Both the position numbers and the translations under genes were made by a program. Below the pieces are notes generated by a model. That model was not told the DNA's origin and searched no databases. It worked only from the letters and a program-made list of their open reading frames with translations. Positions 4,901 to 50,900 of a DNA stretch of 64,000 bases are shown here, in pieces. The stretch is from Microthyrium microscopicum (lineage: Eukaryota > Ascomycota > Dothideomycetes > Microthyriales > Microthyriaceae). Numbering within the stretch: the first letter of the stretch is position 1; every line of letters starts with the position of its first letter. The DNA is taken from contig MU004235.1 of assembly GCA_010405405.1 (NCBI GenBank), positions 758,538-822,537 on the forward strand. Reading direction: 5' to 3'.

Positions 4901-7900
4901 TTACACGCCAGAGTCCAAGACGGTGACCTGGTTCGCGTTTGCGAAAGTCTTCCAGGCAGCACAGGTGCCCGTAAGAGAGCACGAGTCTGATACTCCGCCA
5001 CCTGACACAATCTGGCTTTGCATTTCAACGAACTGCAGCGCGAAGCCCATGGATGTATGCTGTGAGTTGTTAGTTTGAGACTCAAAAATAGGACGATTGA
5101 GGAACTTACCCATCCAATGTGGCAATGAGCTAGCCAGACACCTGGGTTGTCGGTCACGAAGGCAATGACAACGTAACCTGCAGTGGGCATGAGCACAGTG
5201 TCTCTACGTGGAGGATTGACCAAGTTCAGAACTGTGCTTGAGCTATAGGTGCCAGCGCCAGATGCCAGGATCAAGAAATCGTGACCGTGGAGATGGATGG
5301 GATGTGGCAGAGGGATTGGCGATTCGATGATTACGTAGACCCATTGATCCTTCGTGGGAAGAGGCAGAAGGAGTGAGCCAGAGTAGTTGGTGGTCACGTT
5401 GTTCTCGGCGATCTCGTAAAGAGTTGGGTCGTCGTACTGCGAGAAGAAGGTTTGTCCGTTGAGGTACCACTTGAAAAGACTGGCTTGGTTGGCGGCCTGT
5501 TCAGCGCAGTTAGATTTCAGTACTTGGAGAGTGTTTCTAGTAGACTTACAATGACGACGGTCAGAGGACCTTCAGTAATGTCAGCTGTACCAGCATTCTT
5601 TGCAACATAAGGAACGAGAGAAGCCAAAGGCTCGTCGATACAAGCATCAGTGTAGTTGAAGCCAGTGGTGGTTGGAGTTCCTGTAGAGTTGAGTCCAGCA
5701 TAATTGAAGACAGCCTTGATGTCGCGGTTCTGGATGGTGTGAGCGCAAGACTCTTGGTTGTCAGCACGAAGCCAGTAGGAGCCCGCGGTCTGGTTAGCAT
5801 GGATGATGATATCATAACGCTGACCAATGTTGATGTTCAAGATGTTGGTGGTATATGGAACAATGGGCACCAGATCGTTGGCGATAACGTCGAAGGAATG
5901 TCCATCAAGAGAGAACTTGTATGTAGATTGAATGGCAACATTGACAAGTCTCAAACGGTAGGATTTGCCTTGTTGGATGTTATTGAAGGTAAGACGAGTT
6001 CCAGAAATTGCAGTTGCGTTGGTAGCTCCGCTGACACCATTATCCCATACGTTTTGGCCGTTGAGAAGACCTGTATCCATAGTTTGAGGTCCGCCGAAAG
6101 TGGCTCCGGTGGCAGGATTGGTGGTGGCATTTTGAGCCATATCATACATGCTGTCAACAGTGCGGTGAGTCCAATCTTGAATCATAAGTGGGCCAAGATC
6201 TTCATCGTAGGCTTTGGTGGACGGGCCGTCAATAACAATTGGACCGAAAACACCTTCCCAAGTTTGAATGGCAAAATGACTGTGATACCATGAGGAGCCG
6301 TATTGCTCAGCGACCCAAGTATAGGTCATGGAAGATCCAGGGGCAATTGGGCATTGAGTGATTGATGGAACACCGTCCATCATATTGTTATTGAGTTGTC
6401 GGATTCCGTGGAAATGGATGCTGGTTCCGTTCTTCGAAGTAGTCAGTTTGTTGTTTACTGTCACAACAACGGTATCACCCCAGCTAGCCTCGATAGTTGG
6501 GCCTGGCATTTGACCATTGACAACCATTGCGAAGCGTGGGACGCCATCTGGGCTGAGCTTGGTTTCGGTGATATCAAAGTTGTAGTGAACAACCTTGCAA
6601 GTCTTTGGTGGTGCCGTAGTATAATAGTCAGTGGCGATGGTCAAGCCGCAGTACTTGTCAGTTCCTGGTTGTCCTTGGCAAGGAGTACAATTAGGAAGCG
6701 TGCTGGCGCTTGGAGCCGCAGAGCTAACACAGGTCGCCGCACTGCTGGAGGAGGATGACGACGAAACTGTTGAAGAGCTTGCTATCGAGCTTGATGATGA
6801 TGCTGGGAAGCATGAGATATCGTAGAAGAGATATGGACTCGCGGCATTAGCGTTGAAGTTGCCAGCAACAGCAGCTGTGTAAGTAAGACACTCTGTGCCA
6901 CTACCACCGAAAGCGAATGACAGACATGACTGGGTTCTGCAGATAGCAGCACAGCTGGCAGTATCGGCAACGGTTCCACTGTAGTATGCTGCGGCAGGAT
7001 TTCCAGCATCGTACCCAGGTAATCCACAGGATGCGCTGACGGATGGAACTGCTGAGCTCAAGGTAGCCGATGATGTGATTGAAACCGATGAGGCGAGGCT
7101 GGAGGAGACTGGCGCGCTGGAGGAAACTGGTGTACTGGAGGACGCTGGAACCGACGAAGACGCGCTGGAGGAAACTGGGGCAGATGATGAAGCCTTGCTG
7201 GACACTGATGCACTCGACGAGGCAGGTACTGATGAGGACGCCTTGCTGGACGACACTGGCGCGCTTGATGATACAGGTGTCGATGATGACGCCTTGCTTG
7301 AAGACACTGCTGCACTGGATGAAACAGGTGCTGATGATGACGCCTTGCTAGATGAGACTGGTGCACTGGATGATGCTGGCACTGACGACGACGCTTTGCT
7401 GGATGATGCTGGCACGGACGACGACGCTTTGCTGGATGAAACCGGTACTGACGATGATGCCTTGCTAGAAGATACTGGTGTGCTCGATGGGACCGACGAG
7501 GGTGCCTTGCTGGATGATGCTGGAACAGAGGATGATGCTTTGCTCGAGGTCACTGGCGCAGACGATGTTGGCTTCACAGACGACGATGTCTTTACTGACG
7601 AAGAGGATGGGGCGCGGGTAGAGGAGCTAACTTTAACGCTCGACGAGCTGCTCACTCCGCAAGTGCCAAAGGTCGATTGGCAACCAGTTCCGCAAGAAGC
7701 GGCGTCTGAGCCACACGTGCCAGCCTGTTTATTGTTAGTTGATAGCTCTTGTTAGGGCATGCGGCATTTTGAAGTCTCGTAAGACATGGAACGACGAAGG
7801 AGCTGCACCAACATCTCCGATTTGATATGCACTGAGTGGGATAGATAACGTACCTTGCTACAGCAGTTACCAAAACCACTTCCTTCGCAGTTTGGCCCGA

Positions 7901-13289: not shown

Positions 13290-14422
13290 TCATACAGCTG
13301 ATGCAAAAGACGCCAACGCCGTACACGAAGACCAAAAACAACCAGTGTGCGTGTCACCAAATAAATAAAGAACGCAACAATACCAGACCCGAAATGCTCG
13401 TAGCCCGTAGGCAATCAAAACTCCTGCTCTAAAGACTGACTTCGCAACAGAACTCTCCAAAACACACTCCAAGAAAAACAAACTCCAAGAAAAACTCAAT
13501 AGTTTACCCGGGTCGTCAAAGGTGTCGATTCGGGTCTTTTTGAACCCTTCGGGAAGGCGTGATATGTCTACTTTGGGCTGTCTTTGTAGCTTTGGTGTGG
13601 GTCGCGGTACCCGCTTTGGGAGGCCGCGCGTCGTCGATAGTGGTGAGATGATGATGATTTCGAAGTTTCTACTTGAGCATTAGTATATCATACAAAGAGA
13701 GAGTTACTTATTTATCAGCAAATCGCAAATGTTGGAGGGGCTTTTCCCTCGAATGGAAAAAGCGAGAGAGCCGTCCATATTTGGCTCGCCCGAGCCTGCT
13801 CTTTGATCCTTGGTCGAGGGCTGGGAGGTGGCAACCTCTGTCTATCAGAGTGTTAGCTGAAGCTGGTTAAAGAGCGATGAGGACCATAAAACTCAGAGAG
13901 ACATGAGGTCAATGGAGCTTTGCGGACCAGGAAATGTCATGAGTGATGGTACTGTGGTAGTGATGGAGTTGTGGGAATGTTGGCGCTGTAAGGTTGATGG
14001 AGCTTTGAGACCTTTGGCTATGAATGACAGCTTTGATTTGGGCGGGTCGTGGAGAATGATGGAGCGGTGAGATTCGTACGAGCTGTGAGATAGATGGGAG
14101 CTGTGAAAGCGCCGAATGTGGTTGTGAGAGAGATGGGCTCGCGAGGATGAAGGTGACGTGAACTTAGAGACTTACCGTTGAGGCGGCTATGCCGTAGTGT
14201 AAGCAGAAGGCCGATCGTTGTTAAGGATGCGTTATGGATACGGATATTGATGGAAAAAGGATATAATGTGAGTGATGGATGGACTGTGGAGTTCTTGAAA
14301 TGAAGAGGGGTTGAGAACGAGACGGGATGAGACTGATTCGCAAGACATGGGCCGAATGAAAGAAGTGAGGCGATGGAAGTACCAACCTGGTAGTAATTTG
14401 GGAGGAAGCAGAGATGTGGCAC
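13290..14422 (-). pseudogene. decayed MGCGP-family paralogue, copy 2
   Basis: Related to the plus-strand gene at 21545-22960 and the minus-strand copy at 33150-34160. The last exon (about 13290-13690, minus) gives LPKRVPRPTPKLQRQPKV..., then SRLPEGFKKTRIDTFDDP and a hydrophobic tail with AKSVFRAGVLIAYGLRAF. The upstream exon (about 13690-13840) contains SRLGRAKYG, matching TRLGRAKYM in copy 1. The connecting intron acceptor (CTAATGCTCAAGTAG) is nearly identical in all three copies. A longer upstream intron (about 13840-14175) is filled with degenerate units around CTCCCATC and CTCACAG. I find no MGCGP first exon here, and the reading frame across the exon junction does not hold, so it is probably broken. 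Function unknown. Confidence 0.6.
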
Positions 14423-15500
14423 ATAAAGGTTGTCTTGGGTAGAAGTAAAGGAAGAGCTACGTTGATAAAGCCTAGCGGCACTAAGATACTCTTGACTAAA
14501 AAAGAGAATTAATTTACTGGGCAGCAGGAGAAATGTAGTTCATTGCGGCTGTGTAGCGTGTACAGTACTGTATGCTCAATACAATCTCGTCTCGTCGAGG
14601 TTTTGGAAATTGTTCAAATTGGAGTGAGTGGCAGTGATTTCTTTGACCTTCATTGTTGACGCTTGTCTACCATCAGATACATTTCAACTACAATTTGAAA
14701 CATGGAAACAGAGGCTTATGCTTGGAGGAATACTCTGGCAGCTGGCATAATTATCGAAGGGACAACGCAACTAGTTTACAATTGTTGACGCAAAAGGGGG
14801 GGCCTGTACTTACGTTGTTGTAGTCGGTACTACCTTAATGGACCAAACTCCTTTGTAGCTTTCATCTTTTTTGCAAGAACATATGATCAACAGCCAGCAC
14901 GGATTGGGACTCTCTGACTTGTCTGACTGAGTAAGTAGGTACACCTAGAGCACCTTCGCAGTTGGGTTGATACACAGCTGAAGCTAATTATGCCTGCCAA
15001 TAATGTCTTTATACACGTATCATGTATGAGATTTCCTGGGCTAATCGGCAGTGACTACAAGGCTCTTATGATTTCTAGTTCCGTAGACTTTTATCATGCC
15101 ACACCCAAACACAACGGCTTGATTGCCAACCCTTAGAAGGTGACGAAGCGGAGAGGCTCGGCATGGCAGACAGATTCAGTCTGTGGACGAATTGCTACTT
15201 GTTAGATACACGAAGGAGGCTTCTACTGTATGCAATTTTCAATTGCCCATCTCAAGTGCATCCGTCCCTTCGCTTAACTCTAGGCAAGACACCCTGTTTG
15301 GGAAGGAACAATGAATCATTCTGATATTACGTTCCACCGTCTTGGGAAAGAGCATTCTGAATTTCTGATGCTATCAAAATTTCAAGATGTTCCTTCCTAG
15401 CTCATCCTCTCGTCTCTCTTGCATCCTCCTCTCTGTTTTTTCCTGTCTGCTCTCTCGCCTCTTCAAAACATCTTTCTCCCCTCACTTTCATATCTCTTGT
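14423..15500. other. intergenic region between copy 2 and the decayed repeat array
   Basis: No gene seen. The sequence becomes strongly pyrimidine-rich from about 15400, which is the entry into the decayed array. Confidence 0.4.
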
Positions 15501-17640
15501 TCCGCTCCCTCTACTTTGTCTAGCCTTCCGCCATTGTAGACAGGCACTGTATGATGACAATAGATATTACTTCACCCCCGATCTAATATCTCATCATTCA
15601 ATTGGCGGCTTGACCAATTGTCTTATTCTAAAGCAACGGGATCTGGTCTTGGTGAGCCAGTAACCGTCCACTGCTATCATCCTTTCAACTTTTCAACCCT
15701 TTTTCAACCTTTTTCTTCTTTTTTCCGACAATTCTCAACACATTTCTCATCACACCCATCCGCCAACATGGGTTGTGGACCGACTCTAGCACCATCCGAG
15801 TACGAAATTTTGATTATATTCGATGGCTTGGCCAGCAGCTTCAATGATTTCTTCTTCTTCTTCTTTTGTCTAGCCCTCACGCAATGTGGACAACAGGTAT
15901 TACTGTGGCCCCTGGCAAGCCCGCCATTTTTGCAGACCCAGCATAATGACAATAGGTATGCATGTTCTCGTCCCACCCTCCTACCATCAAGATTCTTCTC
16001 CTCTATCTGCTATGAGCTGACTTCTACTAGATATAGCTGAACCCACGGCAATATCGAATCTGATTGTTGGCTTAAGCAATCAGTTTCAATCTAAAGCAGC
16101 TGTCCCTGGTGTGGTGAGCCAGAACTGTCGACTACTATCACCTCAAACCAACTTCTTCAACTTTTTTCCCACTTTTTTCTTTACTTTTCGACATTTTTCA
16201 ACCCTTTTCTTTTCATCCATCCTTCAAAATTGGTTGCGGACCGTCCAGCATCATCGGAGTACGATATCTCGACCTTATGTAGTGGCTGGACCAGCAGCTT
16301 CCATTAGCAACGGGTTCAATTCTTATTGGAATCAGAGCTATAACCCTGGTCAATTATCACCTCAAATCAGCTCCAAGCATCGGAGCCCTTCTGCTTCCTC
16401 TTCGTTTCTCCTTCTTCTTCTCCTTCTTTTGTCCAGCCTTCGGGCATTGTAGACAACAGGTATACTCCTGCGGCCCTGGCAATCCTGCCATTCAGGTCTG
16501 TATCTTCTAATCTCATTCTGCTATCATCTCACCCTCACGCAATCTCGCCCTTCTATCATCAAGTCCCTCTCTCCCATTGGCCATATGCTAACGTCTACCT
16601 AGTTGTTGCTGCACCCGAGTGATAACGGCACTTTGGTTGGTGGCTTGCCAGCAGCAGTTCCTGGCCCGATGAGCCAAGAACTTTCGACCACAGATCAATC
16701 TGTTCTCGGCCTTTTCTTCTTCTTTTCGAGAGTGAATAGCCTCTTCTTCTACACACATCATTCGAATCAGGTTGTGAATCCTCTAGATCCTACTGCGACC
16801 CCGGCAATCTAGCAGCAGGATATTGTCTGCAGACATAGGTATATATCTTCTTATGCTACTCTACCCTTGTATTATCAAGATTCTTCTTTTCTATAGGCCA
16901 TATACTATGACTATCAACCTTTCTCGCATTATACCCACCCGCCGACATAGGTTGTGGACCCACTTAAGCACCATACGAGTACGAGACCCTATTTGGTGGC
17001 TAGACTAGCAGCGTTAATGATTTCACCATCTTCTTATTTTGTCTAGCCCTTACGCAATGTAGACAACAGGTATTACTGTGGCCCTGGTAATCCAGCACGC
17101 AAGGCACCGCGTGCGGGCAATAGGTGTGTTCTTATCTTACCCCCTATCATCAAACATCAAAGTTCTCGTTCATTGCACCTTATGCTAACTTCTGCCCAGT
17201 TGTTGCTAGTCTTCGAAAATATCGACTCTATTTGGCAGCTTGACCAAACAGTTTTGAACTATGGCAACCGGGTCTAGTTCTGGTGAGCCATTACCGTGGA
17301 CTGCTATTACCACAAACTCTCTATCAACCACTTCCTCCTCTCAGGCTTCAGCTATTTGACAATATGGGCTTAAGTTTAACGATGCCATCCGGACATGATA
17401 TGCCGATTCTACCTAGTGGCTCGCCTTGGTACGTACGTCCAAGACAAAGCGGTACTTCCTGGTTCAGACGAACCGGGACTGTCAATGCCTATCATCATTC
17501 ATCACCAGTCAATCCTCCAGCTTCATCAAATCTACTGAGTGCCTCAACGGCCACTTGCACTGAGCAACGTTCTCTGGACTTAGTAAGGCAGAGTCGTGTA
17601 GAAGGTATCATCGTTCGCCAGATCTGAATTGTTACAAAAC
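15500..17640 (+). repeat. array of decayed MGCGP-family 5' units
   Basis: A unit of roughly 500-700 bp recurs with heavy divergence. Landmark A (TAGCCCTCACGCAATGT then GACAACAGGTATTACTG) appears near 15870, 16435 and 17043. Landmark C (GGCGGCTTGACCA, then AAAGCAACGGG and TGGTGAGCCAG) is at 15604, about 16065 and about 17231, with partial forms near 16290 and 16635. Landmark B, the MGCGP start context (ATGGGTTGTGGACC, then a GAGTACGA block), is at 15769, about 16230 and about 16950. Each unit also has a CT-rich stretch before B and intron-like ends (ATGCTAACTTCTACTAG type). The same A-C-B order lies just upstream of the intact gene at 21545. I read it as old tandem duplications of that gene's 5' part. 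None of the units looks intact. Confidence 0.6.
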
Positions 17641-19360: not shown

Positions 19361-21180
19361 TGTTTCTAACCAAGTAGCTGTGGATCAAGGTTGTGCTAAC
19401 AATAAAATCATGGGTTCTCTAGATTTATTTTAGCATGGGATTTTAGCATGGGATGCCTGAGCCAGGCACAACGATTATAACTCCTACAACTCGCAGCATA
19501 TTATTCTAACTGACACAAATCAAGCCGCTTCTAGAATATCAAAGTGAATAAAATACTTCTCAGGTCAAGTACCTTAAACCGCGATGCACAAGCAGCCAAC
19601 AGCCTTTGATCCGAGTTGCGGTTCGATGGTCTTCTTTTTGTGCGGATGTTACGTGACCCAACATGATACCCTTCATATACTGTCAAAGCCATGATGATGT
19701 TCAAGACGGAGAGTGAAGAAGCACGAGTACGTTTGCAGCACCACAACGTATGATCAGATGCCATAGGTAGAAGAGTACAAAACGCGCTTATGAGTTATAA
19801 CCTCGAGGAGAAGATGTATGGAAGCAAATCGGTGGTACATATGTTGTTGACGCTGCACGTGTTTGTCGCAAAGGTCTTTGGTTTCCGGGAATCTAGTACA
19901 TGATAGCGTCGCGGAGGACCGTCAAATCAGACGTTTCAGTATAGAGAAATACCGAGGGGAAGGTGAGCTTGGAAATGCTTGGAACGCTATCTGTTGGTTG
20001 ACTAAATAGTGACACAACCACAATCTCGCGTACCGAGGCAGGTTATTGACGCCAGAGCATTGGAGTACACAGAGATCGACATGATGATCTTGAGGAGCAT
20101 GATTTCAGAATAAGGGGTGGAAAGATATCGATAAGGGTAGCCAGTAGGTGGGCCGAGTAACGGAGCTGCATTTACTTCATTGGATTGTCCGCGCTTTGGC
20201 ATTTTGGAAGTCAAAGGGCATGCTACTGAGAACTCGAGGCGGTACCTGTGTAGAGGTGGCAGTCATGGTTCCGAGTAGATCGCGTGCAGAAATCGCTAAA
20301 TTCCACAGGGGGCAGGGGCGTAGCATGCAGGCGGGTAGGCGGGAAGGGCTGGCGGATGGGCCCGCTATCTCACCGGTTGTGGCAGGCGCGCTCTCGATGA
20401 CAGGGTTGACACATTTGTGTGGGGATCTTTAGACGACATGTCTTGATTCCAACTTCATGTGAAATCGTTTACAGCTGCTTATTCATTCTCCCCAGCTTTT
20501 CATTTGTAAATGCTGCTATGATTGCTGTGGTGGAGGTATACCGCTAGGTCAGTGGTCATAGCGAATGTCAAAATACCGATGTGTGCTAAGTAATATATGC
20601 GCTGCGCAGCCATACGTAATCCTCGCTCGCAAAGCTCAAGGTGCCCACTATCTTTCGCATCAATTGCAGTTCAATTCTATTGAGATCGAAATAAACTGAA
20701 AATCGGGTTGCTATTATTGTAATTGAGTACTTGGGTATTTTCAATTCCTCAAAATTGGGTCCAACATCTCATAATGTTTCAGTGACTTCGAAACAATATT
20801 GGAATATGGGTGCGCTGCTCCATAAATTTATTGTGCTTAATTTTGCATACACAGAACTAATTTCTGCTCATATCAGACGACACATGCCTTCCTTATTGCG
20901 CTTAGCGTAGCAATGCGTTATGTCGCAGATGCAGTGTTCATGGGTACGCAAAGCTGTTTGATGGTAAGCTAAAATTCTTGACCTGGCATCAACGCAACCT
21001 CTAAGGCATACGATTCGCGAAAAGCCTTTCCCGCAGCATCAACTCCACTTCTAGTGTCTGCGATTGGTGGTCAACCATACACTGCAACAAAACGGCATAA
21101 TAATTGATTTGCACCATAGCAATGCACCACATCACGTATGGTCCAAGCGGCTACTGGAGGGGTATAACCGCCCGTCCCTT
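19361..21180. other. intergenic, no gene seen
   Basis: About 1.8 kb of mixed composition. A short direct repeat (TTAGCATGGGAT twice, near 19430-19453) is the only structure noticed. Open frames are short and domain-free. Confidence 0.4.
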
Positions 21181-21544
21181 CTCAATTTTCTTCCTCTCTT
21201 CTTCTTCTTTTTTCCAGCCGGAAGGCACAGTATGCAGACAACAGGTAAGCAGCCTCCCATCACACATTCCCATCAAACATGATCTTTCCCATCTCACTTG
21301 AACTTTCCCATCGCATTTGAACTCATATGCTAACTTCTACTAGATATAGCTCAACCCCGTAGTATATCTGACTCCGTCCTGGCGGCTTGACCAGGCGGTT
21401 TGAATCTAAAGCAACGTGACCCAGTTCTGGTGAGCTGGCAGCGTCGACTATTATCACCACCCCCAATTCTCAACACTTTTTTTCCCTTTTTTCATTTTTT
21501 TTTCGACAATTTTTTTACCTTTTCATCTCTACCCATCCTTCAAA
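21181..21544 (+). promoter_or_regulatory. upstream region of the intact MGCGP-family gene
   Basis: Carries landmark A (GCAGACAACAGGTAAGCAG near 21232), an intron-like block ending ATGCTAACTTCTACTAG (about 21328-21345), landmark C (GGCGGCTTGACCAGG at 21381) and a long T/C tract (21470-21540) directly before the ATG. All of these recur, decayed, at 15.5-17.6 kb. The A and C blocks may be 5' UTR exons or an upstream exon that I cannot join with confidence. Confidence 0.4.
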
Positions 21545-22960
21545 ATGGGTTGCGGACCATCCAAACAGCAGTATGACTGCTGGGACAGTAAGTTGCTAAC
21601 CTCCCATTGCACTTCATCTTTCCCATTACACTTCATCTTTCCCATTGCACTTCATCTTTCCCATTGCACTTCATCTTTCCCATTGCACTTCATCTTTCCC
21701 ATTGCACTTCATCTTTCCCATTGCACTTCATCTTTCCCATTGCACTTCATGGCTACCATCGCATTTGATGGCATTCCATCGACGAGATCCAAAAACTGCA
21801 ATTTTTCGCAATTTTGGCATTGTCCCATGAAATTCCATCACCCTTCCTGGCGCCCATCTCACCTCATGGCACCCATCTCACTTCATGGCTATCATCGCAT
21901 TCGATGGCATTCCATTGACGAGACCCAAAAATTGCACTCTTGTGCGATTCTGGCATCGTCTCATCACCCCTCATGGCGCCCATCTCACTTGATGGGTACC
22001 ATCGCATTCGATGCTTTTTCATTCCAAAGATCCAGAATCTGCATTTTTCACAGTTTTGCGCTCTTCTCGGAAACCTCCATCACTTTTCATGGGCCCCATC
22101 GCGGCTCATGGCTACCATCGCATTCGATGGGATTCTACAGCAATTTCCGCAATGATCATTTTCTTGACATTTTTGGATCTTGTTCTGCCACAACATCGCT
22201 GCCTCTGGCGCCCATCGCACTCAATGGATACCATCGCACTCGATGGAATTTCATGTCAGAGACTCAAAATCTGCTTTTTTCCGCAGTTTTGGCATCTGGT
22301 CATGAAATGCTATCACCCTTGATGGCTCCCATCGCAATTCATGGCTCTCATCGCACTTCATGGCTCCCATCGCATCTCATGGGAATTTTGACTAACCTCA
22401 TTTCAGAGCTAGATCTTTTCCTGCCGACAGATGTCACGACGTTTGAGACCTCGACAAACGGCAAAATCTCAGAAAAATGTCGTTTGACAAGGCTCGGACG
22501 AGCCAAATACATGGCTCAAGTGAACCCAAAACCAACCTTGACACGAAAACCTGGAATTTTCTCGCGGGTTTTTCGAAAGCCCGAGGAAAAACCCTCAAAA
22601 GAAGTCCATTTTGATGATGAGTAAGTGATCTCTTCTTTCCCATCCACTTCGCTGGCCAATATCACCTTCGGTATTGATCAAGCTCTCTCTCTCCCCCATT
22701 GCACTCGATGGGAATTATCGACTGCTTTCTTTGCCATGGCATTTGATGGAATATGCTAACGCTCAAGCAGAAATATCAAATTCATCATTATCTCGCCACT
22801 CTCAACATTCCGCGCACTCCCAAAGCGCACACCACGACCTATACCACGACCAAAACCGCAACAGCAACCGCACCGACTGCCAAAAGCAGCAACATCACGA
22901 CTTCCGAAAGGAGTCACCAAACCCAAAATCGACACCTTGGACGACCGGGTCAACCTTTGA
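21545..22960 (+). CDS. MGCGP-family protein, apparently intact copy (function unknown)
   Basis: Not a family I recognise. Spliced model: exons 21545-21587, 22407-22620, 22771-22960; 148 aa. It starts MGCGPSKQQYDCWD: Gly2 and Cys3 with Ser6 fit N-myristoylation plus palmitoylation, as in fungal G-alpha (MGCGMS). Then come a basic middle with TRLGRAKYM and SRVFRKPEEKPSKEV, an acidic FDDE, and an Arg/Pro/Gln-rich end (RALPKRTPRPIPRPKPQQQP) closing at KIDTLDDRVNL. Introns: 21588-22406 (819 nt, GTAAGT...CTAAC...CAG) and 22621-22770. Intron 1 is a multiple of three without in-frame stops, so a retained form would read 359 codons from the ATG to 22624. Relative to copy 2, the hydrophobic tail (FFAKSVIGAGVFIAYG) lies out of frame after the stop, so this copy may be shortened. 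A membrane-attached cytoplasmic protein is inferred. Confidence 0.55.
21604..21755 (+). repeat. 19-bp tandem repeat, about 8 copies, inside intron 1
   Basis: Unit CATTGCACTTCATCTTTCC repeated head to tail with almost no divergence (one copy has ATTACA). The low divergence suggests recent expansion. Because 19 is not a multiple of three, all three frames are read in turn, and none contains a stop. Confidence 0.9.
21749..22400 (+). repeat. imperfect ~110-135-bp tandem repeat, 5-6 units, inside intron 1
   Basis: Each unit opens near ATGGCTACCATCGCATTCGATGG (starts about 21749, 21884, 21993, 22108, 22224, 22341), passes through an AAAAATTGCA / CGCAATTTTGGCAT block, and ends CATGGCGCCCATCTCACTTC. 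Divergence between units is about that of old duplicates. Related CTCCCATC/CTCACAG units fill the introns of copies 2 and 3. Confidence 0.75.
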
Positions 22961-23020
22961 GTTTTTTGGAGAGTTTTTTGGAGAGTGTTTTGGAGAGTTT
23001 TTTGGAGAGTTTTTTTGCAA
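22961..23020 (+). repeat. 12-bp tandem repeat (TTTTTTGGAGAG)
   Basis: About five units of TTTTTTGGAGAG, one reading TGTTTTGGAGAG. In one frame it encodes Leu-Glu-Ser-Phe repeats that lead into AKSVIGAGVFIAYG. It sits just after the stop of the intact-copy model. A degenerate equivalent is in frame in copy 2 (SLFFLECVLESS). Confidence 0.8.
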
Positions 23021-23080
23021 AGTCAGTCATTGGAGCGGGAGTTTTCATTGCCTACGGGCATTTTTGGGGCTTGTAGATTA

Positions 23081-23721
23081 GCATTTTTCAGTATTCCATC
23101 ACTCTGCACATTCGCTTGTAGAAATGAAAGTCATTCACTGAAAGAATTGTACAATTGATCGTGTGCACTGAACAAACAAGTCAACTAATTGCTAAGCATA
23201 GCCCATGTCGTTTTTACCCATACAAATAAACCGTCAATCAATACAGCATCGCAATCATGCAGTTCCCAGTCGCCAACAAAAAGAAAAACTAACTATTTCA
23301 AACACTCGGAGCACTTGCTGTAGTCTTGTGCGCAGAGAGATGAGCAAGAGAAGACAAGGTCCACCGAAAAGTTAGAAAAGCAAGTGGGTATTTCCATCAT
23401 CATTAATCGTGTTGACCTTGGGGTCTGCCAAAAACATGTGTCAAGTTCCATTCCATTGCGCCGTTGCAAATGATACTGTCGAATCGTGATTACAAAAAGA
23501 AAAGAGGATGGTCGGTCATAGTGATATCGTGGGGGATCATATGAGTGTCGTTTCGAGTAACAGCATGCCCAGAAGTGGCGTGATGCAAAATGAATGAGAC
23601 CCATCCAAGGAGTCGTTTGTCCAATGCTGACATGGCGGATCGTAATATAATGATCATCGAGTCGTGCAGTCATAGCATCATGATCGTGCTTCGTGGCCAT
23701 ATTCTCTCCAAGTGAGAATAA
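23081..23721. other. intergenic between the MGCGP gene and the forkhead gene
   Basis: About 640 bp. It most likely holds the two converging 3' UTRs. No gene is seen. Confidence 0.4.
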
Positions 23722-26052
23722 TCAGAACATGGTAGTGGAGCGACGAATGAAGTTGCCCTGATTTGGTCGCGATTGTCGCGATGGACGAGTCGGGCTAGGC
23801 ATGGGAGCTGGATAATCCCAGTGAGGAGGAGCAAGATGCTGAATATTTTGCTGCAATGCTGCAACTGGTGCGGCAGCAGCAGCACCAATGCGCTGGAAAC
23901 CTTGAGTGATATCAACCCCGTTTTCAGAATCATCAGAGGGGAGGTTGAGAGCAAAGGAGATGTCGTCAAACCCATTGTCATCTTTAGTGGTAGCTTCCAA
24001 GAGGGTCTTCTTCAGAAACTTTGGTGTATTGAAAAGAGTTTCTTCCTCCACTGTAGACAAACGCTTGGATGGCGAGAACAAGCGCGGCGGTGAACGAAGT
24101 CCTTTGGTTGGAGACAGTGTAGGGGCTGGTCCCAGCTCAGGAATCGAATTGATCTTGCTGCTTGTGATATTGGCCAGGATATTAGCGGTAGTATTGGCTC
24201 GTTCAAGACGTGGACGTTTGGAGTTGCGTTCTGCTTGGGAGTTGGTACGAGCCCGGAGAGGCGAGCTGCGGGTCGGGGAAGCAAAGCCGTGTTCATCAAA
24301 GGAGAAGAATGTGCCAAAGTCGAGATCAGCCTCCATTGCAGGGGGCGCTGGTTGCATCCAATCCGAAATAGTTTTTGGAGTCGGGGGTGAAATTGGAGCC
24401 CACGAAACGTTGAATGCGTGGTGGCCAGGACTCGGCATGACACCAAGGTTTCTATCTGGCGAACCAAGCAGTCCCTTGAGATTTTTGCGATGCTCGTTGA
24501 GACTAGTGTTTGGAGAGACCGACATGGGGGGTTTGCCAGGCTTCTTAAACAGGCCTGGAGTTAGGGGAGCTTTGTGTGAAACACCATTACGGAATGGTGA
24601 AGATGAGATGCCTCCATTGCTTTGTCGAGGTTTAGAAGGGCTGTCATATGACGAACTACGAATACGAGCAATCTCTTCTTCAGCTCGACCCATTACGCGC
24701 ATTGGATGCTCGTTGTCTGCATCAGAGGTCAAGAATGGTCGGGGATTACGGCTCGCAGATGATTCTATCGATGAGTAGTAGCCGCTATCACCCATGCCAC
24801 CAATGGTTCGCTTTCGCTTGCGATTGGCTCCTGAAAGAGTCTTGGGTATCGCAAACTCTACAGCTGCTGGTGGGGTACCTTCTCGAACAGAAATGGCTGG
24901 AGGTGGTGAGGAATGAATATCTCCTGGGGGAGGCGATGAACGTGGAGCTTTGGCAGGAGGCGGCATTAAACTGGAATCCACAGCGATCCCTTCATGAATA
25001 GCTGGGTCAGAAGCAGGAATCGTGGCATCCGAAGATAATTCATCATCGGGAAATTTGGCCGAATCAACATTTTTTGAATCCACGAGCTGAGATGACATTG
25101 ATTGTGAAGTCGAGGGTCGTTTGTTGTGATTGGGATGAGGCATGCTGGAACCATATGTAGATGCTGGCTTTGGCTTTTCTTTCAAGAAGGTAGCTTCATG
25201 ACCTGGAACCACTCCCCAGTAATTTCCCTTGCCTGGATCGTCTTTTGGTCGAATGATCTTGACAAAAGCCTTGTTCAAGCTCAAGTTGTGACGGATGCTG
25301 TTCTGCCAGCCAGTTTCTGGAGCTCGGTAGAAGCTGTAAGAGTCCTGGATCCATTTGTATATTTGAGCCAGGGTGAGCTTGCGACTTGAAGATCTCATAA
25401 TGGCCGCTGCGATCAATTGCGAGTAGCTTAATGCCGGCTTGTTGCCATCGTCCTCAATGTCAGGCCAATTACCGGGATCAGGAATCGCAACCGGCTCCTC
25501 TGTGGTCTTTTCCTGCGAATGTTGGATCTTCTTTTGCTTTTTATTGGTGCTTTTCTCGCCCAAGGGAGCAGCAATAGCGGAGGAAGCGGATAACTTTCGC
25601 TTCAGAGTTCCTTGGTGCGACTCGTTGCCCACTCTATACACATTCTCCTTATCGAATTGTGTAAACTGAGGGAACGGGTACATGGAGATGTCCTCAAGAG
25701 ACTTTGGCATTACATGATTCGACATGGATTGGGGTAGGAGCTTCTTTTGAGGCGAGTCTGTTACAAATGATGAAGCTTCTGGGGGAGGGATAACTATATT
25801 GCGGAGGGATATCTTAGCATTGGGAAGAATAGAGGACGGCATATGACGCCAGATTTTCTTGGTTGGAGACCTACCACTGGAAGTAGAATATGATCCATGC
25901 TGGTTGTGTGATAGTTCTGATAACGGATTTGGAGGGAATTGATAGTTTATCGGCGAGGTTTCGTACGCAACAGAATGGTCTAGTTGAGTTGACACTGGAA
26001 GCGGATCTTGATAGATATCGAATGACTGCGTCACCCGACGCGTTGGAGACAT
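23722..26052 (-). CDS. forkhead transcription factor, Hcm1/Sep1-like
   Basis: Nuclear winged-helix factor; yeast Hcm1 and fission-yeast Sep1 drive S/G2-M gene expression. Single exon, 776 aa from the ATG at 26052 (MSPTRRVTQSFDIYQDPLP); the open frame upstream of it has no ATG. The forkhead domain is at about residues 205-290: ALSYSQLIAAAIM, KLTLAQIYKWIQDSYSFYR, GWQNSIRHNLSLNKAFVK, GKGNYWGVVPGHEATFLKE. The GWQNSIRHNLSLNKAF recognition helix and the GHEATFL/FLK wing fit the Hcm1/Sep1 branch better than Fkh1/2, and no FHA domain is seen. The C-terminal half is low-complexity with many SP/TP sites (possible CDK sites). Two ACGCGT boxes lie 58-73 nt upstream of the ATG. Confidence 0.88.
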   Translation of the reverse strand: MSPTRRVTQSFDIYQDPLPVSTQLDHSVAYETSPINYQFPPNPLSELSHNQHGSYSTSSGRSPTKKIWRHMPSSILPNAKISLRNIVIPPPEASSFVTDSPQKKLLPQSMSNHVMPKSLEDISMYPFPQFTQFDKENVYRVGNESHQGTLKRKLSASSAIAAPLGEKSTNKKQKKIQHSQEKTTEEPVAIPDPGNWPDIEDDGNKPALSYSQLIAAAIMRSSSRKLTLAQIYKWIQDSYSFYRAPETGWQNSIRHNLSLNKAFVKIIRPKDDPGKGNYWGVVPGHEATFLKEKPKPASTYGSSMPHPNHNKRPSTSQSMSSQLVDSKNVDSAKFPDDELSSDATIPASDPAIHEGIAVDSSLMPPPAKAPRSSPPPGDIHSSPPPAISVREGTPPAAVEFAIPKTLSGANRKRKRTIGGMGDSGYYSSIESSASRNPRPFLTSDADNEHPMRVMGRAEEEIARIRSSSYDSPSKPRQSNGGISSSPFRNGVSHKAPLTPGLFKKPGKPPMSVSPNTSLNEHRKNLKGLLGSPDRNLGVMPSPGHHAFNVSWAPISPPTPKTISDWMQPAPPAMEADLDFGTFFSFDEHGFASPTRSSPLRARTNSQAERNSKRPRLERANTTANILANITSSKINSIPELGPAPTLSPTKGLRSPPRLFSPSKRLSTVEEETLFNTPKFLKKTLLEATTKDDNGFDDISFALNLPSDDSENGVDITQGFQRIGAAAAAPVAALQQNIQHLAPPHWDYPAPMPSPTRPSRQSRPNQGNFIRRSTTMF

Positions 26053-26109
26053 GATGAAGGTTTTTCCAAGGAACCAGCTGGTATAGTCAAAGACTTTTTG
26101 GGCTCGAAT

Positions 26110-26125
26110 ACGCGTCGAAACGCGT
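26110..26125. promoter_or_regulatory. paired MluI cell-cycle boxes (ACGCGT x2)
   Basis: ACGCGT at 26110-26115 and again at 26120-26125, in the context GTCGAAACGCGTCGA. The site lies just upstream of the forkhead start. ACGCGT is the MBF (Mbp1/Swi6) binding core for G1/S genes, and yeast HCM1 is a late-G1 gene. Functional binding is inferred. Confidence 0.5.
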
Positions 26126-28099
26126 CGAGTTGAGGTTGGACGACTCGTCAGACGAGACAAGACCGGTGTTGACGGAGCCGGAGTCAAAGTCGACTGGAGT
26201 GGGCGTAATTGCTGGAAGGTGAGGTGAAGGTAGATTTAGACGGTAATGGAGGATTCCTAGAGCGGAGGTCAGGAATGGCTCTGGGAGGCGGTTGGAGGTG
26301 TGATATAGTGGGATCTTCGGAATTACCTTGAAGGATGGCGCTCTCCTTGCGTCAAGGGCGGTGGACCAAGCGTAGAAATCTGGAACCGGGAGCCCGATGG
26401 CGTGAATCGTAAAGGCGTGAGTTGTAAGTACTGATGCTCTGGAAATAATTGTAGTCAATACTGAGTGGGAGTAGTGGAGGATATGGTGTTGAAATCTAGG
26501 TGGGTGGTGGTAGATAGAGATTGGAGAAAGGTGGGCTGGAGGAGCGAAGCACTTTTGCAAGTGAAGGAAGCGACAATGGAGCTTGGCATCGGGACTGGGT
26601 GACTGGGAGGGGAAGGCACGACAGGCACGAATTCAAGTCAAATCAGGTCCCACTTGCCCAATGCCAACTTCCTTGGTTGTTCTTTCTCTAAAGTGTCTTG
26701 GGTGTACAATATGCAACGTGTATTGCCGGCTCTATCCTTGTTCGTAGCAAGTCCTTTTGCCTTTAGCGCCGTGAAAGCTCCTTCCAAAACACCGTGGCCA
26801 GTCATTAATTCTCAGTCTTCTTTCCATTTTATTTCTCTCAACTGAGCGCTTGACACGTAGCTTCCGTAACTCGTTCCTCAATATCGGGTACCTGGATTGC
26901 CCTGTACTGCAGCTCAGCCTTTTAAACGTTGAATGAAAATTTCTGAAGCCTCTATCCATCACAGCAAAATCGTCTTATCTTTGCGATTCATGCTCGTAAG
27001 GATTCTATGGATATGTAGTACCGTCTCCAAGCTGCACTCTTCATCCGTCTTGCAGATAGCTGTGCATAACCAACGTTTCATCCACTGGCTGATGCTCCGC
27101 CGCCTTTTATCAAGAACTGCAGCCCGACGCGTCAAAACGCGTCGACGAGGTGGAGTAGCGTGACTAGTAAACAAAGCCCCGAGCCTCTCAGCCAATCAAA
27201 CATACCTCGGTCGCGTATCCCTGCAAAATGAGATCCAGATATCTCGCGTTGGACTGCTAGAAACGTCATTAACACGACCGATCGTATGCTTCAGTTCTTC
27301 AATTTGTGCGCTGTGTAGTCTACAAGGCTGCTTTGCCCAACCGTATTACAGTTTCATGCGGGGTTGAAGCCGGCAAGAAATGGTTAAACATGTCATGAAA
27401 TGGTCGGATTCTTCTTGCTATTGGATCGAGATACACTCTCATCGTAGGTGATGTCTACCACTAGGCACGCTGTGAACCCAACTGTTTTCCTAGCGAATGC
27501 GCTGGAACAGGAAGATAGTGTGTTCTGTTACCTGTAGGTTGCGATAATAGGTAATGTAAGTCCATGAAAACACGCCGGTCATATTGTTCCCCAGTTGATA
27601 ACTCTACGGTGTCCGTTTGATATGGAACATTGGCAGCGAAGTTGTCATGACGGTGCATCTCGATTTGATCATTTGATTGTTGCGAGAGTACTCTATTCAG
27701 GGATTCCTAGCACATGCGAACCATATCAGCCGTCCCTTGGTTCTAAGCTCTTCACAACCTCTTGGCCCGAAAGGCTGAGTAGATTGACAGCAAGGACTGT
27801 TTCTGATCCGAACCAAAGAACCTTGACTTTCCGCGTCCCAGTTCCCGTAGAACTATATCGACTCATGGCACCTTGTACCCACTCGCCTCTAAAATGCCTC
27901 CATCGGCCTTCAATATACGATGATCTGCCTTTTTGGCTTCTTGTTCACCACTGATTGGACATCACTAATCTGCTACTCAGCTCTAAGCTTTAAGCAATAT
28001 CTTAGCAAGGCTCACCGCATTCAGATCGAGATGCACATAGCCATGTCATGCATTCTGATTTATTGGCTTCAAACACGCCAACTACTGTCGCATTGTCGC
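26126..28099. other. forkhead upstream region and intergenic sequence
   Basis: About 2 kb without a convincing gene. It contains a second ACGCGT pair at 27127-27142. Open frames near 26650 and 27600 have no domains. The stretch likely includes the long 5' UTR and promoter of the forkhead gene and the BUD31 3' UTR. Confidence 0.4.
27127..27142. promoter_or_regulatory. second paired ACGCGT site
   Basis: ACGCGT at 27127-27132 and 27137-27142 (GACGCGTCAAAACGCGTCGA), the same 10-bp phasing and nearly the same flanks as the pair at 26110. It is about 1.1 kb upstream of the forkhead ATG. Confidence 0.4.
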
Positions 28100-33149: not shown

Positions 33150-34160
33150 TTATGGGCGCTGGCTCCCAGTGACTCCGGAGTCCGATGCTCCCATCGAATC
33201 TTTCTCTAATACCTGCCATCCCGAAGCGGCGTTCGCCCATAAGTTGCTCATGTGATTAGCTATCGCCCCGAAATAGCTACTGCACAAGAACCAAGAACAT
33301 CCATAAGCAATCGAGACTTCCAACACCAAAACAAAGGGCTGCAGACTTGGAATCGAAGACAAATTCAAAATTGCGCTAAGAACAATCGACCGAAAACCCC
33401 AAGGTAGACCCAAGATGTCGTCCCAAGTCTCGATTTTAGGTTTGGTGACTCCTTTTGGAATTCGTAACGTTTCCGCTTTCGGCAGTCGCGGTTGCGGTTG
33501 CGGTTCTGGTCGTGGTATAGGTCGTGATGTGCGCTTTGGGAGTGCGCGGGTTGTTGAAAGTGGCGACATGATAATGGTTTCCAAAAGCTTCTACTTGAGC
33601 GTCAGCATATTCCATGAAGAGGGGATGACTTACTCATCAAAAGCCAGATGATTGGCAATCTTCTCGTCTTCGAATCAGACGCGTGAAGAATGTCGTTCCT
33701 TCGGTGACAATAAGTGGGAAGCGACAATGAGCAACTCTAAGAAAATGTTAGATTGAAGCCCTCCAGAGTGTGACGTTCACAGTTGACTCATAGGAGCCGT
33801 GAGGGGGCTGGAAAAATGATGGGAGCTGTGAAATGATGGAACCTGTAAGACTGATGGGATGAGTCAGGATGGTAAAATCTGTGAGGACGATGAAGCTGAG
33901 AGGATGATGATCCTGAGAAAGTGTTGCTGCTGACAGAGTTTGGGGACGTACTATAGAGGTTGTTGTTCTATGGTTTGGAAAGGAGGCAAACCGTTGGAGA
34001 TGGCCTTGTAAGATGAAGAATGGATGATCAAGGCGGTAGGGAGATTAAAGTAGCTGGGCAGAGCGGAGACGGAGGTAATTAATAGAAAAGCAGTAGGAAG
34101 TTACTACTGGAAGAAAAAGGCAGGAGAGCGGCACTTACCATTGTTCTCAGCGATGCTTGA
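33150..34160 (-). pseudogene. MGCGP-family paralogue, copy 3 (probably decayed)
   Basis: The last exon (33150-33590) reads IIMSPLSTTRALPKRTSRPI, PRPEPQPQPRLPKAETLRIP, KGVTKPKIETWDDILGL, closely matching copy 1, then a hydrophobic end (SIVLSAILNLSSIPSL, LEVSIAYGCSWFL). Its acceptor (CTGACGCTCAAGTAG) and the upstream exon end (FFTRLIRRRE, ending TTTTGATGA before GTAAGT) match copy 1, but the phase across this junction does not keep the frame. The upstream intron carries degenerate repeats (GCTCCCATCATT, TCACAG, about 33770-33920). The hydrophobic C-terminus suggests that the ancestral protein had a membrane segment there. Whether it is expressed cannot be told. Confidence 0.5.
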
Positions 34161-47930: not shown

Positions 47931-50900
47931 ATGTCCATCCAAGCATGGTACTCGAAGCTGTTCTCCCTGAAGGTTGACCTTGTCGGCGACTACGCAGGAA
48001 GCGAATTCTTCCTTCTCAATGGAGATTCCTTACTTCTCCATGTCTTCGAAAATGAGTACCTGAATTTTGATGACGGACTCCAACTTCTACATGCCTCCTT
48101 TCTTGCTGAGCGTTTCCTTCACTCTTTGAAAACTCGTAATTGCAATTTTGGCGTTGTGTTCTTTGATTCTTTAGCCAACGCATGCATCCCAGCCTACACC
48201 GAACTCTCAGCCCACTCAAAATACCTCTTTGCGAGAGAGGCCATCATCCAGCATTTCGAACATGCCTTGAGCACCACGCACAACATTCCCTTGCGCCGTT
48301 TCACCTCTCCCTGGGATCCCGAATTTTCAGAGTATCTGAGTTTAACTGGTGCCTACTTTTGGATGGTAATATTTCCCCGTGTCAAATCACATTTCTTGAC
48401 GACATCCGTTGGAACCAAAACATCATATCTCCCATCATACTCGATGGTTACCATAGAATGCGTTCTTGATCCAGTGCTATGGAATGCACCGAATACGATG
48501 GGTGTTCTGTGGTTTCACCACGAATATACCATTTGGTCTTTTCGTGGTCTTCGCTCTAATCGTAATCTATACTAACAAATTCCAGGCCCATGATGGAGCT
48601 CTCAACGCCAAAGCAGTCATTGACACAGATGCCAACCCCAAGCTCCAGGAACATCATGTTGAATCCCAAACTATTCTCCGGAAAACAATACATCATCTTC
48701 TCTGCGTTGGTATCAATACGGCACTACTAAACGACCTGGAATTCCGAGATACCAAGATCATGGCTCGGGTCGTCGAGGCCAACAAACGATCAGACGAGAT
48801 TGATGATGAGCCCAGACACAATTCAAGCAATCTGATGACCACAATCGAACTGCCAGACGATCTAGAGGAGTTCAATGAAGCTCTCATCGAGCTAAGCAAG
48901 AAGCTGTCACCTCGTGAAGTTCTCATAATCATGGCTTTGGTGTGCATGGTCAAAACCGGGGCGTTGAAAAAGACACCTGATAATGTCACTCGCATCAAAG
49001 CAACCATTCTTCATTTGACGCTGGTTAAGCATCTCAAGCTCGAAGATCGAGCGGTACGTCAAGCCAAGCATGATTTGGAAGATAACAAATTCCTCAGCCT
49101 GTTGGCTGAAGCTGCGCTTGATGTCTTGAAATCTGATGGCTGGACTACTACGATGGGTGTATCGACGCTTGAGGAATTCGATCTGGCAGATTGCATTGAT
49201 GGCCGAGTCCTCCTAGCAACGATAACAAATTTCACAGTATCTAAGCTTGCATTCGATGACTCAATCAAGGAGGATTTTGCCGCTCTTCTCGCCGCCTTTC
49301 AGGAAGCATGTGGCATCGAGATCACGGTCGATATTAAGTCTTCAGGCATGGCCAACGGAGGTATCTCACAAAAACCGCACGCTTCGCTAGCCAAAGTATC
49401 TGTTTTGCCGTTTGATAACCCTGTGTTTGATAAGCATCTGAAAGATATCCATATCAAGGTGAAGAAAGCAGACACGGCGGACAAGAACAGTACTCGAATC
49501 TTCCAAGAGCTATCTCATTGGCATAATCACAAGCGCTTGCTGGCACCAAAGGCAATTCCAGTGGTAGATCCCAAAACAGCTCGGCGCCTCGAACGTCGAA
49601 CCAATTTTCTCATGGCAGACATGCGCGATTATGCTGTGAGCCTGACAAACGCGGCTGGTGGAATTCTTGAACCAGAGACCATCTTATCGCAGGGCACGGC
49701 AAAAGAAACACCGAAACCTACCAAATCTAAGCAGCAGCAAAATAGCAAGTCTGGAAAGTCCGCAATGAGAACGGAATTGGACACACGCCGACAGAAGCAG
49801 CTGGAAAAGTCTCATGTGGAATGGATAGCAGCCTGGAAGACCAAACTTCAATCGATAGAGATTGTGGATGATCAGCTACAGAGATATTTTTTAGCCAAGG
49901 AAGCCTTGTCCCAACTGAAGAACGATAGACGAAGTGTTGTAGAACCAGAGATCTACTGTTATATGCTTCATTGCGCAGCTACGGCCTGGAAGTTAGCTGC
50001 TCTTAAGAGTGCTCGAGCAGAGTCGCCTGACATTGCGGTGCTGATCTGGTCCATCTCATTGAAGCTGGCTGCACTCGCCGAAGGAGTTTCTACTGCCATT
50101 GCAAAATGCCTTCAAATAACCTTGGAAGCCCTTCATTTGCCAAAGTTACCCCTTTCAACTACTAGCGATCGCAAACTCTCCTTCAAGTTTGTTGAGCTTT
50201 CTCCAACAGCAGAGCTTGCAATCCCCAACCAATCTTCGACACTCGACTTTCAATTGAAATTTGCAGGGCCATACATGGATCGCAACATTGATTCTGAGCC
50301 GGATGCCCGTGTCACTGGCTTTCGTCCTGATAAATGGCAGCGACGGGTCCTGGATTTGATCGACGAGCACAAGAGTTTATTCGTCGTTGCGCCTACCAGT
50401 GCTGGTAAAACATTCATATCTTTCTACGCTATGAAGCAAATTCTTCAAGAAGATGATAACGGTGTTATTGTTTATGTGGCGCCAACAAAGGCCTTGGTCA
50501 ATCAAATTGCAGCTGAAGTAGCGGCCCGATTCTCGAAAACCTTCAAGCATGGAGGCAAATCAGTATGGGGCATACACACACGAGACTACCGCATCAACAA
50601 CCCTACAGGGTGTCAGGTCCTGGTTACGGTTCCCGCAGTTCTCCAAATTCTACTCATGGCGCCGTCAAACGCCAAAAAGTGGTCTACTCGTATCAAGCGG
50701 ATCATTTTCGATGAAGTCCATTGCATTGGACAAGCAGATGATGGTGTGGTATGGGAGCAACTTTTGCTAATGGCTCCATGTCCTATCATCGCGCTTTCTG
50801 CTACTGTTGGTAACCCGTTGGCATTTTGCGATTGGCTTCGCAACACACAGCAAGCCAATGGTATGGAACTGGAGATGGTACAGCACAAGGCTCGCTACTC

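Follow-up and report, generated by a model that had tools for sequence, protein, structure and literature searches.

What the locus at 21545-22960 on the plus strand encodes, and where its introns come from, are the questions raised by the window, the 64,000-nt stretch of DNA analysed here (contig C6, bases 758538-822537; the genome has 36.9 Mb in 20 contigs). The original prediction had placed an unrecognised MGCGP gene family here, with one intact and two decayed copies. The neighbouring genes in the window matched Pfam families for a multicopper oxidase, a forkhead factor, TsaD, a dihydroxy-acid dehydratase, a DDX60-like helicase and a lyase; the forkhead factor, at 23722-26235 (-), lies directly downstream of the locus (copy 1). 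An acidic tandem repeat with units of ~33-51 bp was seen at 7098-7601 (-), in the frame of the multicopper oxidase ORF region.

Copy 1 was predicted to be a three-exon gene with a 148-aa product (Table 1). It retains the start, four splice sites and an open frame up to the stop. The splice sites have a GTAAGT donor and a CTAAC..AG acceptor side, and the two ends of intron 1 are GTAAGT and CTAAC..CAG. For scoring codon use, a table was trained on eight open frames of the window that did not include copy 1. The CDS scored 20.2 in frame and 4.5 and 4.1 in the other frames, and only 1 of 500 shuffles equalled the in-frame score.

Table 1. Features of the MGCGP family in the window, in order of position; C5 and C2 are contigs with related loci.
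Feature	Position	Strand	Remarks
Copy 2, last exon running into the tail (125 open codons)	13293-13667	-	
Copy 2, exon 2 relic RLGRAKYGRLSRFFHSREKP, GT donor absent at the expected place (by eye)	13707-13870	-	
Array of tandem leader segments that carry decayed MGCGP starts	15487-17317	+	0/200 shuffles for the first start
Copy 1, TATA-like box GGGGTATAA and leader segment ending AGGCACAGTATGCAGACAACAG	21160-21244	+	Common to the C5 and C2 loci
Copy 1, putative leader intron GTAAGC...CTAACTTCTACTAG, one satellite unit	21245-21343	+	Splice consensus by eye
Copy 1, second leader segment	21344-21544	+	Homologous to array relics and C5/C2 leaders
Copy 1, exon 1, MGCGPSKQQYDCWD	21545-21587	+	Collinear with MGCGTSRLGRYSPLDL of the intronless C5 member
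Copy 1, intron 1, 819 nt, palindromic 19-bp satellite	21588-22406	+	Flanks continuous in C5
Copy 1, exon 2, KLDLFLP...LGRAKYMAQVNPKP...EVHFDDE	22407-22620	+	
Copy 1, intron 2, 150 nt, two satellite units	22621-22770	+	3' end common to copies 1-3
Copy 1, exon 3, NIKFIIISPLSTFRALPKR...LPKGVTKPKIDTLDDRVNL, stop 22958-22960	22771-22960	+	
Copy 1, tail DNA, homologous to coding tails of copies 2 and 3	22961-23078	+	Out of frame
Copy 1, 3' flank common to the C5 member	23072-23137	+	74% over 76 columns, E 4.5e-5; 0/500 shuffles as good
Copy 3, last exon running into a hydrophobic tail (146 open codons)	33153-33590	-	
Copy 3, exon 2 relic FFTRLIRRRE	33628-33735	-	Stop codons at end, exon-3-joining frame (by eye)

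A genome search with exons 1 and 2 of copy 1 gave a match at C5:1501135-1501335 (E 1.2e-6, 42%). The matching gene is an apparently intact, intronless member of the family with a 201-codon open frame (L087:336-938), which encodes MGCGTSRLGRYSPLDLD...NGKSIPQIQLTTPGRAKYMEQVKPKP...NEVHF...IWAFVTPGNSYR and lacks an intron at either copy 1 intron position. Its codon score was 31.4, a value that none of 500 shuffles equalled. BLASTP aligned the two proteins at E 3e-11 (31% over 106 columns), collinearly from residue 1 and continuously through the exon 1/exon 2 junction; their C-terminal halves gave no significant alignment, and the reverse query, with full-length C5 protein, recovered copy 1 at E 0.0056 only. 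The two loci have the MGCG.S start and GRAKYM.QV.PKP core in common, as well as leader and 3' flank. Other genome matches of the C5 protein were weak (C19:51314, E 0.91; C1:1098839, E 1.84). Because the C5 member kept the leader, the TATA-like box and the 3' flank, it does not resemble a retrocopy. It independently supports the predicted MGCG start of copy 1 and, since it is collinear over the exon 1/exon 2 junction, the predicted splicing.

Left unspliced, intron 1 is a multiple of three and contains no in-frame stop; 7 of 2000 dinucleotide shuffles were open in the same frame and 24 of 2000 in any frame. This openness would be accounted for if intron 1 were not an intron and 21545-22624 formed one open frame of 360 aa with the repeat part translated. 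We consider that reading highly improbable, as the C5 member runs collinear across the intron 1 site, consensus splice ends are present, and the codon signal per codon was -0.007 in intron 1 (129 of 500 shuffles as good) versus 0.137 in the spliced exons. We examined 18 other long candidate satellite introns, and one, L049, likewise had a stop-free frame. Its satellite is more closely related to that of intron 1 than any other (77% over ~160 nt), so the openness of intron 1 goes with the repeat. The three-exon model of copy 1 is the one followed below.

The family plan comprises the MGCG.S start, LDL, NGK, GRAKYM.QV.PKP, EVHF and then a short hydrophobic strand ending P..S.(F/Y)R; the C-terminal part is rich in Pro, Arg and Lys. 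The pattern for N-myristoylation and palmitoylation is Gly at position 2, a small residue at 6, no Pro at 7 and Cys at 3. It is present in copy 1 (MGCGPSK) and in the C5 member (MGCGTSR), which both have G2, C3, S6 and K/R7, and a relic reads MGCGPTL. The MGCGPS start claimed for the intact copy was thereby borne out, since MGCG.S recurs in the independent, intact-looking C5 member, as expected if the N-terminus matters. Gly2 would be N-myristoylated and Cys3 palmitoylated, and the acylated start, together with a basic and apparently unstructured body, would anchor the protein to the inner membrane face. Peripheral membrane adaptor is the likeliest role that we infer from the acylation-like start and the basic, probably unstructured body. 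Membrane attachment, as in the original prediction, is suggested by the sequence motif and by moderate hydropathy. The doubly acylated G-protein alpha subunits, which are peripheral proteins, have a similar MGC..S start; unlike them, the family has no GTPase or other domain and no Pfam match.

Database searches gave no relative of the family. The best Pfam match reached 11.3 bits (E 0.24, cut-off 25), and the C5 protein gave none at E up to 1. In PDB, copy 1 gave nothing at E up to 1, and the matches of the other queries up to E 1 were at chance level. A last-exon profile, the only query used for these two collections, gave 94 pattern matches in GTDB genomes and 120 in IMG/VR, none of which was confirmed. 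AlphaFold predicted no confident fold (pLDDT 51, pTM 0.26) when given the last exon of copy 3 together with those of copies 2 and 1. The claim that no known family matches thus held within this scope, and as far as can be tested in Pfam, PDB, GTDB and IMG/VR the sequences appear to form an orphan family specific to this genome.

We used the copy 1 last exon as a genome query and obtained three places, copies 1, 2 and 3 (E 3.5e-35, 2.2e-20 and 4.1e-11), in agreement with the three loci first described as having this exon in common. Besides the last exon, copies 2 and 3 have the intron 2 end in common, and each reads in one frame through to IAYG. The last-intron ends of copies 1, 2 and 3 are CTAACGCTCAAGCAG, CTAATGCTCAAGTAG and CTGACGCTCAAGTAG; all three are alike, as had been noted, with copy 2 one base off TRACG. 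The RLGRAKY motif of the upstream exon, which had been assigned to all three loci, was found in copies 1 and 2 and is absent from copy 3. The MGCGP exon was undetectable upstream of copies 2 and 3, where 113 of 200 and 108 of 200 shuffles scored as high; for the relic near 15768, none of 200 did. The best 19-residue hydropathy means were 1.40 for copy 2 and 1.71 for copy 3, both moderate, and 0.53 for copy 1.

Last-exon dN/dS by NG86 was 0.65 for copies 1-3 (57 codons, dS 0.23), 0.34 for copies 1-2 (52 codons, dS 0.74; YN00 0.36) and 0.31 for copies 2-3 (dS 0.96; YN00 0.45). The range of 0.31-0.65 is indicative of constraint or relaxed constraint. The family had also been called young and fast-evolving, a weak description in view of these ratios and of dS values of 0.23-0.96. 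The codon score was equalled by 10 of 500 shuffles for the copy 3 last exon, which has some codon signal, and by 158 of 500 for that of copy 2, which has none.

The hydrophobic IAYG tail had been ascribed to the other copies, and copies 2 and 3 do read to it. It is also present in the copy 1 DNA, at 23047-23058, in a frame other than that of exon 3; copy 1 therefore stops short of the point reached by copies 2 and 3. A three-way alignment with 111 informative sites indicated a mosaic. Before ~22933, copy 1 sided with copy 3 over copy 2 by 37:12, and after it with copy 2 over copy 3 by 49:13; none of 5000 permutations, which treat sites as independent, reached this pattern. Identity between copies 1 and 2 is 87% over the tail (9 differences in 70) and 72% over the exon. 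Exchange between the inverted copies would be the simplest reading; replacement of the copy 3 tail is an alternative that accounts for part of the pattern. Of the nine tail differences between copies 1 and 2, 3 are at third positions, which is no bias; the tail was therefore maybe not constrained as coding sequence since these copies parted, and in copy 1 it may never have been. As copy 1 ends in the stretch of the mosaic switch, within a frame that is longer in copies 2 and 3, its protein is probably truncated. A 12-bp tandem repeat, GAGTTTTTTGGA, with 4.8 copies lies at 22959-23015, immediately past the copy 1 stop, in the tail common with copy 2.

Leader segments recur elsewhere. In the array (15.4-17.4 kb) the repeated segments are 70-83% alike over 57-420 nt. 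Clear GCGP starts were found there at 15768 (MGCGPT), 16229 and 16947, the latter two lacking a start codon, and doubtful ones near 16770 and 17363. The C5 leader is 90.6% identical over 233 nt to a leader on C2 and 80.6% over 191 columns to window 15542-15728, and the leader segment next to the copy 1 TATA-like box (21160-21244) is 82% identical to C5 over 62 nt and 89% to C2 over 53 nt. GGGTATAA stands upstream of the leader in C5, C2 and copy 1. With the C5 leader as the query, C5, C2 and three places in the C6 cluster were found; counts from these genome searches are lower bounds, and the C5 member had been missed by earlier leader and last-exon searches. At the C2 locus (L043, C2:2328000-2337000, ~3350-2400 minus) the leader precedes a different, Cys-rich ORF starting MCYTVVYFCRGCGEEE, in which tblastn with the family found nothing at E up to 1; promoter capture is possible there.

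Dispersed leaders, one of them ahead of a different ORF on C2, and copies in inverted orientation are what pieces of a transposable element might leave. That origin seems quite improbable to us. The last exon was found at three places and the leader at C5, C2 and C6 only (both lower bounds), similarity stops at the gene edges, no terminal inverted repeats were seen, and there was no match to a transposase or any other Pfam family. Further ATGGGNTGYGGNCC starts occur in the genome at C5:476760 (L064) and C1:1397072 (L063). The ORF at L064 begins MGCGPSR, has a Gly-rich end and may encode another MGCGPS protein; it aligned with the family at borderline values (E 0.005-0.035), with composition correction off and the splicing of the query guessed. 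No clear gene was seen by eye at L063.

Copy 1 is shortened and mosaic, copies 2 and 3 have no detectable MGCGP exon, and C5 adds a further member, so the count of one intact and two decayed copies needs revision; the GCGP starts of the array, the C5 member and the satellite filling the copy 1 introns had all been overlooked. The whole set might be a decayed, untranscribed relic in which copy 1 looks intact by chance. Each C6 copy has a lesion or has lost a part relative to the others, the leader array is clearly dead and copy 1 is shortened, all as such a relic would look, but copy 1 has its start, four splice sites, frame and codon signal, the C5 member has 201 open codons with codon signal, and dN/dS is below 1. 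We regard the relic as unlikely. We think it likely, instead, that these are small intracellular orphan proteins with a conserved start, dual acylation and membrane anchoring, whose C6 copies were duplicated and exchanged and are mostly broken. Sequence comparison supports the family, the splicing of copy 1 and the conserved start. Local and inverted duplication, together with exchange between copies, would have produced the C6 cluster and left most copies broken, and copy 1 would have kept its start, splice sites and frame but probably encodes a truncated product. On the best reading, the family is partly decaying and ordinary in kind, and its intron biology is of more interest.

The unit of the satellite in copy 1 is a 19-bp palindrome, CCATYGCAYTYSATGG, with 531 genome occurrences at ≤1 mismatch versus 6 for the reversed pattern. 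At ≤3 mismatches, 25 unit starts fall in intron 1 of copy 1, 2 in intron 2, 1 in the leader intron (counted over 21245-21347) and none in the three exons. At C5 the satellite is located after the stop codon, outside the gene. Elsewhere it is often intronic, with exceptions: 38 of 68 clusters gave a positive-scoring in-frame intron and 22 of 68 none, while 58 of 300 random places in the window were positive. The clusters were deduplicated and lay ≥600 nt from a locus end, and the loci came from the first 100 of the 531 places. This splice-in-frame test replaced a codon-usage test of flanks in 120-nt windows, which had no discriminating power, as 0 of 98 clusters passed the preset threshold.

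Many satellite introns have converging ends, GTAAGATTCC... and ...GTAATCTTATACTRACAAATTCCAG, as seen among the 24 listed out of 46 introns with a GTAAG start and a length of 150-380 nt. The introner-like elements of the genome have the ends GTAAGATTCC...ACTRACAAATTCCAG around a palindromic CCATCGCAYTCGATGG core and lie in many different genes; examples are at L013, L015, L023, L037, L054 and L084. Their 3' end pattern occurred 46 times (≤3 mismatches) versus 0 for the reversed pattern, and one element as the query gave 53 matches, itself included, with 40 of 44 candidates scored. The L023 element folded far better than shuffles (z -5.19). The window contains one such element, 220 nt long at 48366-48585 (+), as an intron of the DDX60-like helicase gene. 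The sequences on either side of it join in frame, its ends agree with those found genome-wide, and its fold is weaker (z -2.00). Related introns in many genes, in-frame spliceability and stable predicted structure characterise these elements, which are, judged by these features, introner-like elements in the sense outlined in PMC4457414, PMC8469720 and PMC9860276. The introns of copy 1 are not full elements of this kind: they have the palindromic unit in common and different ends. Intron 1 of copy 1 likewise folded better than shuffles (z -5.21, 20 shuffles).

Like the Capnodiales introner-like elements as outlined in PMC4457414, the elements here appear as near-related spliceosomal introns in many genes, with canonical splice ends and stable predicted hairpins. 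They differ from that outline in carrying the 19-bp palindromic unit, a distinction drawn from the descriptions, and in that this unit is also arrayed as long satellites within introns and, at C5, past a stop codon. The symmetrical sister stwintrons of Hypoxylaceae, in the account of PMC8469720, are likewise proliferating introns with internal inverted repeats. Their palindrome is given there as WTTCTAGAAA, with terminal repeats of 45-55 nt, whereas the palindrome here is CCATCGCAYTCGATGG, internal and tandem.

The C5 member is intronless with its flanks kept and has the same satellite just outside the gene, and copy 1 has satellite in all three introns and none in its exons. A bold reading of these two observations, to which we give a rather low probability, is that the C6 copies acquired their introns and that these were built from the satellite; loss of the introns in C5 is the main alternative. 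The family itself is one more orphan with a probable lipid-anchor start, relevant mostly to annotators of this genome. If the C6 introns were indeed made from satellite, a palindromic satellite could become spliceosomal introns, and the introner-like elements of the genome would be the streamlined form of the same satellite-to-intron process. Of wider use is the pair formed by C5, intronless with satellite outside, and C6, with satellite-filled introns: in a genome whose introner-like elements carry the same palindromic unit, it offers a small testable case for the origin of new spliceosomal introns.
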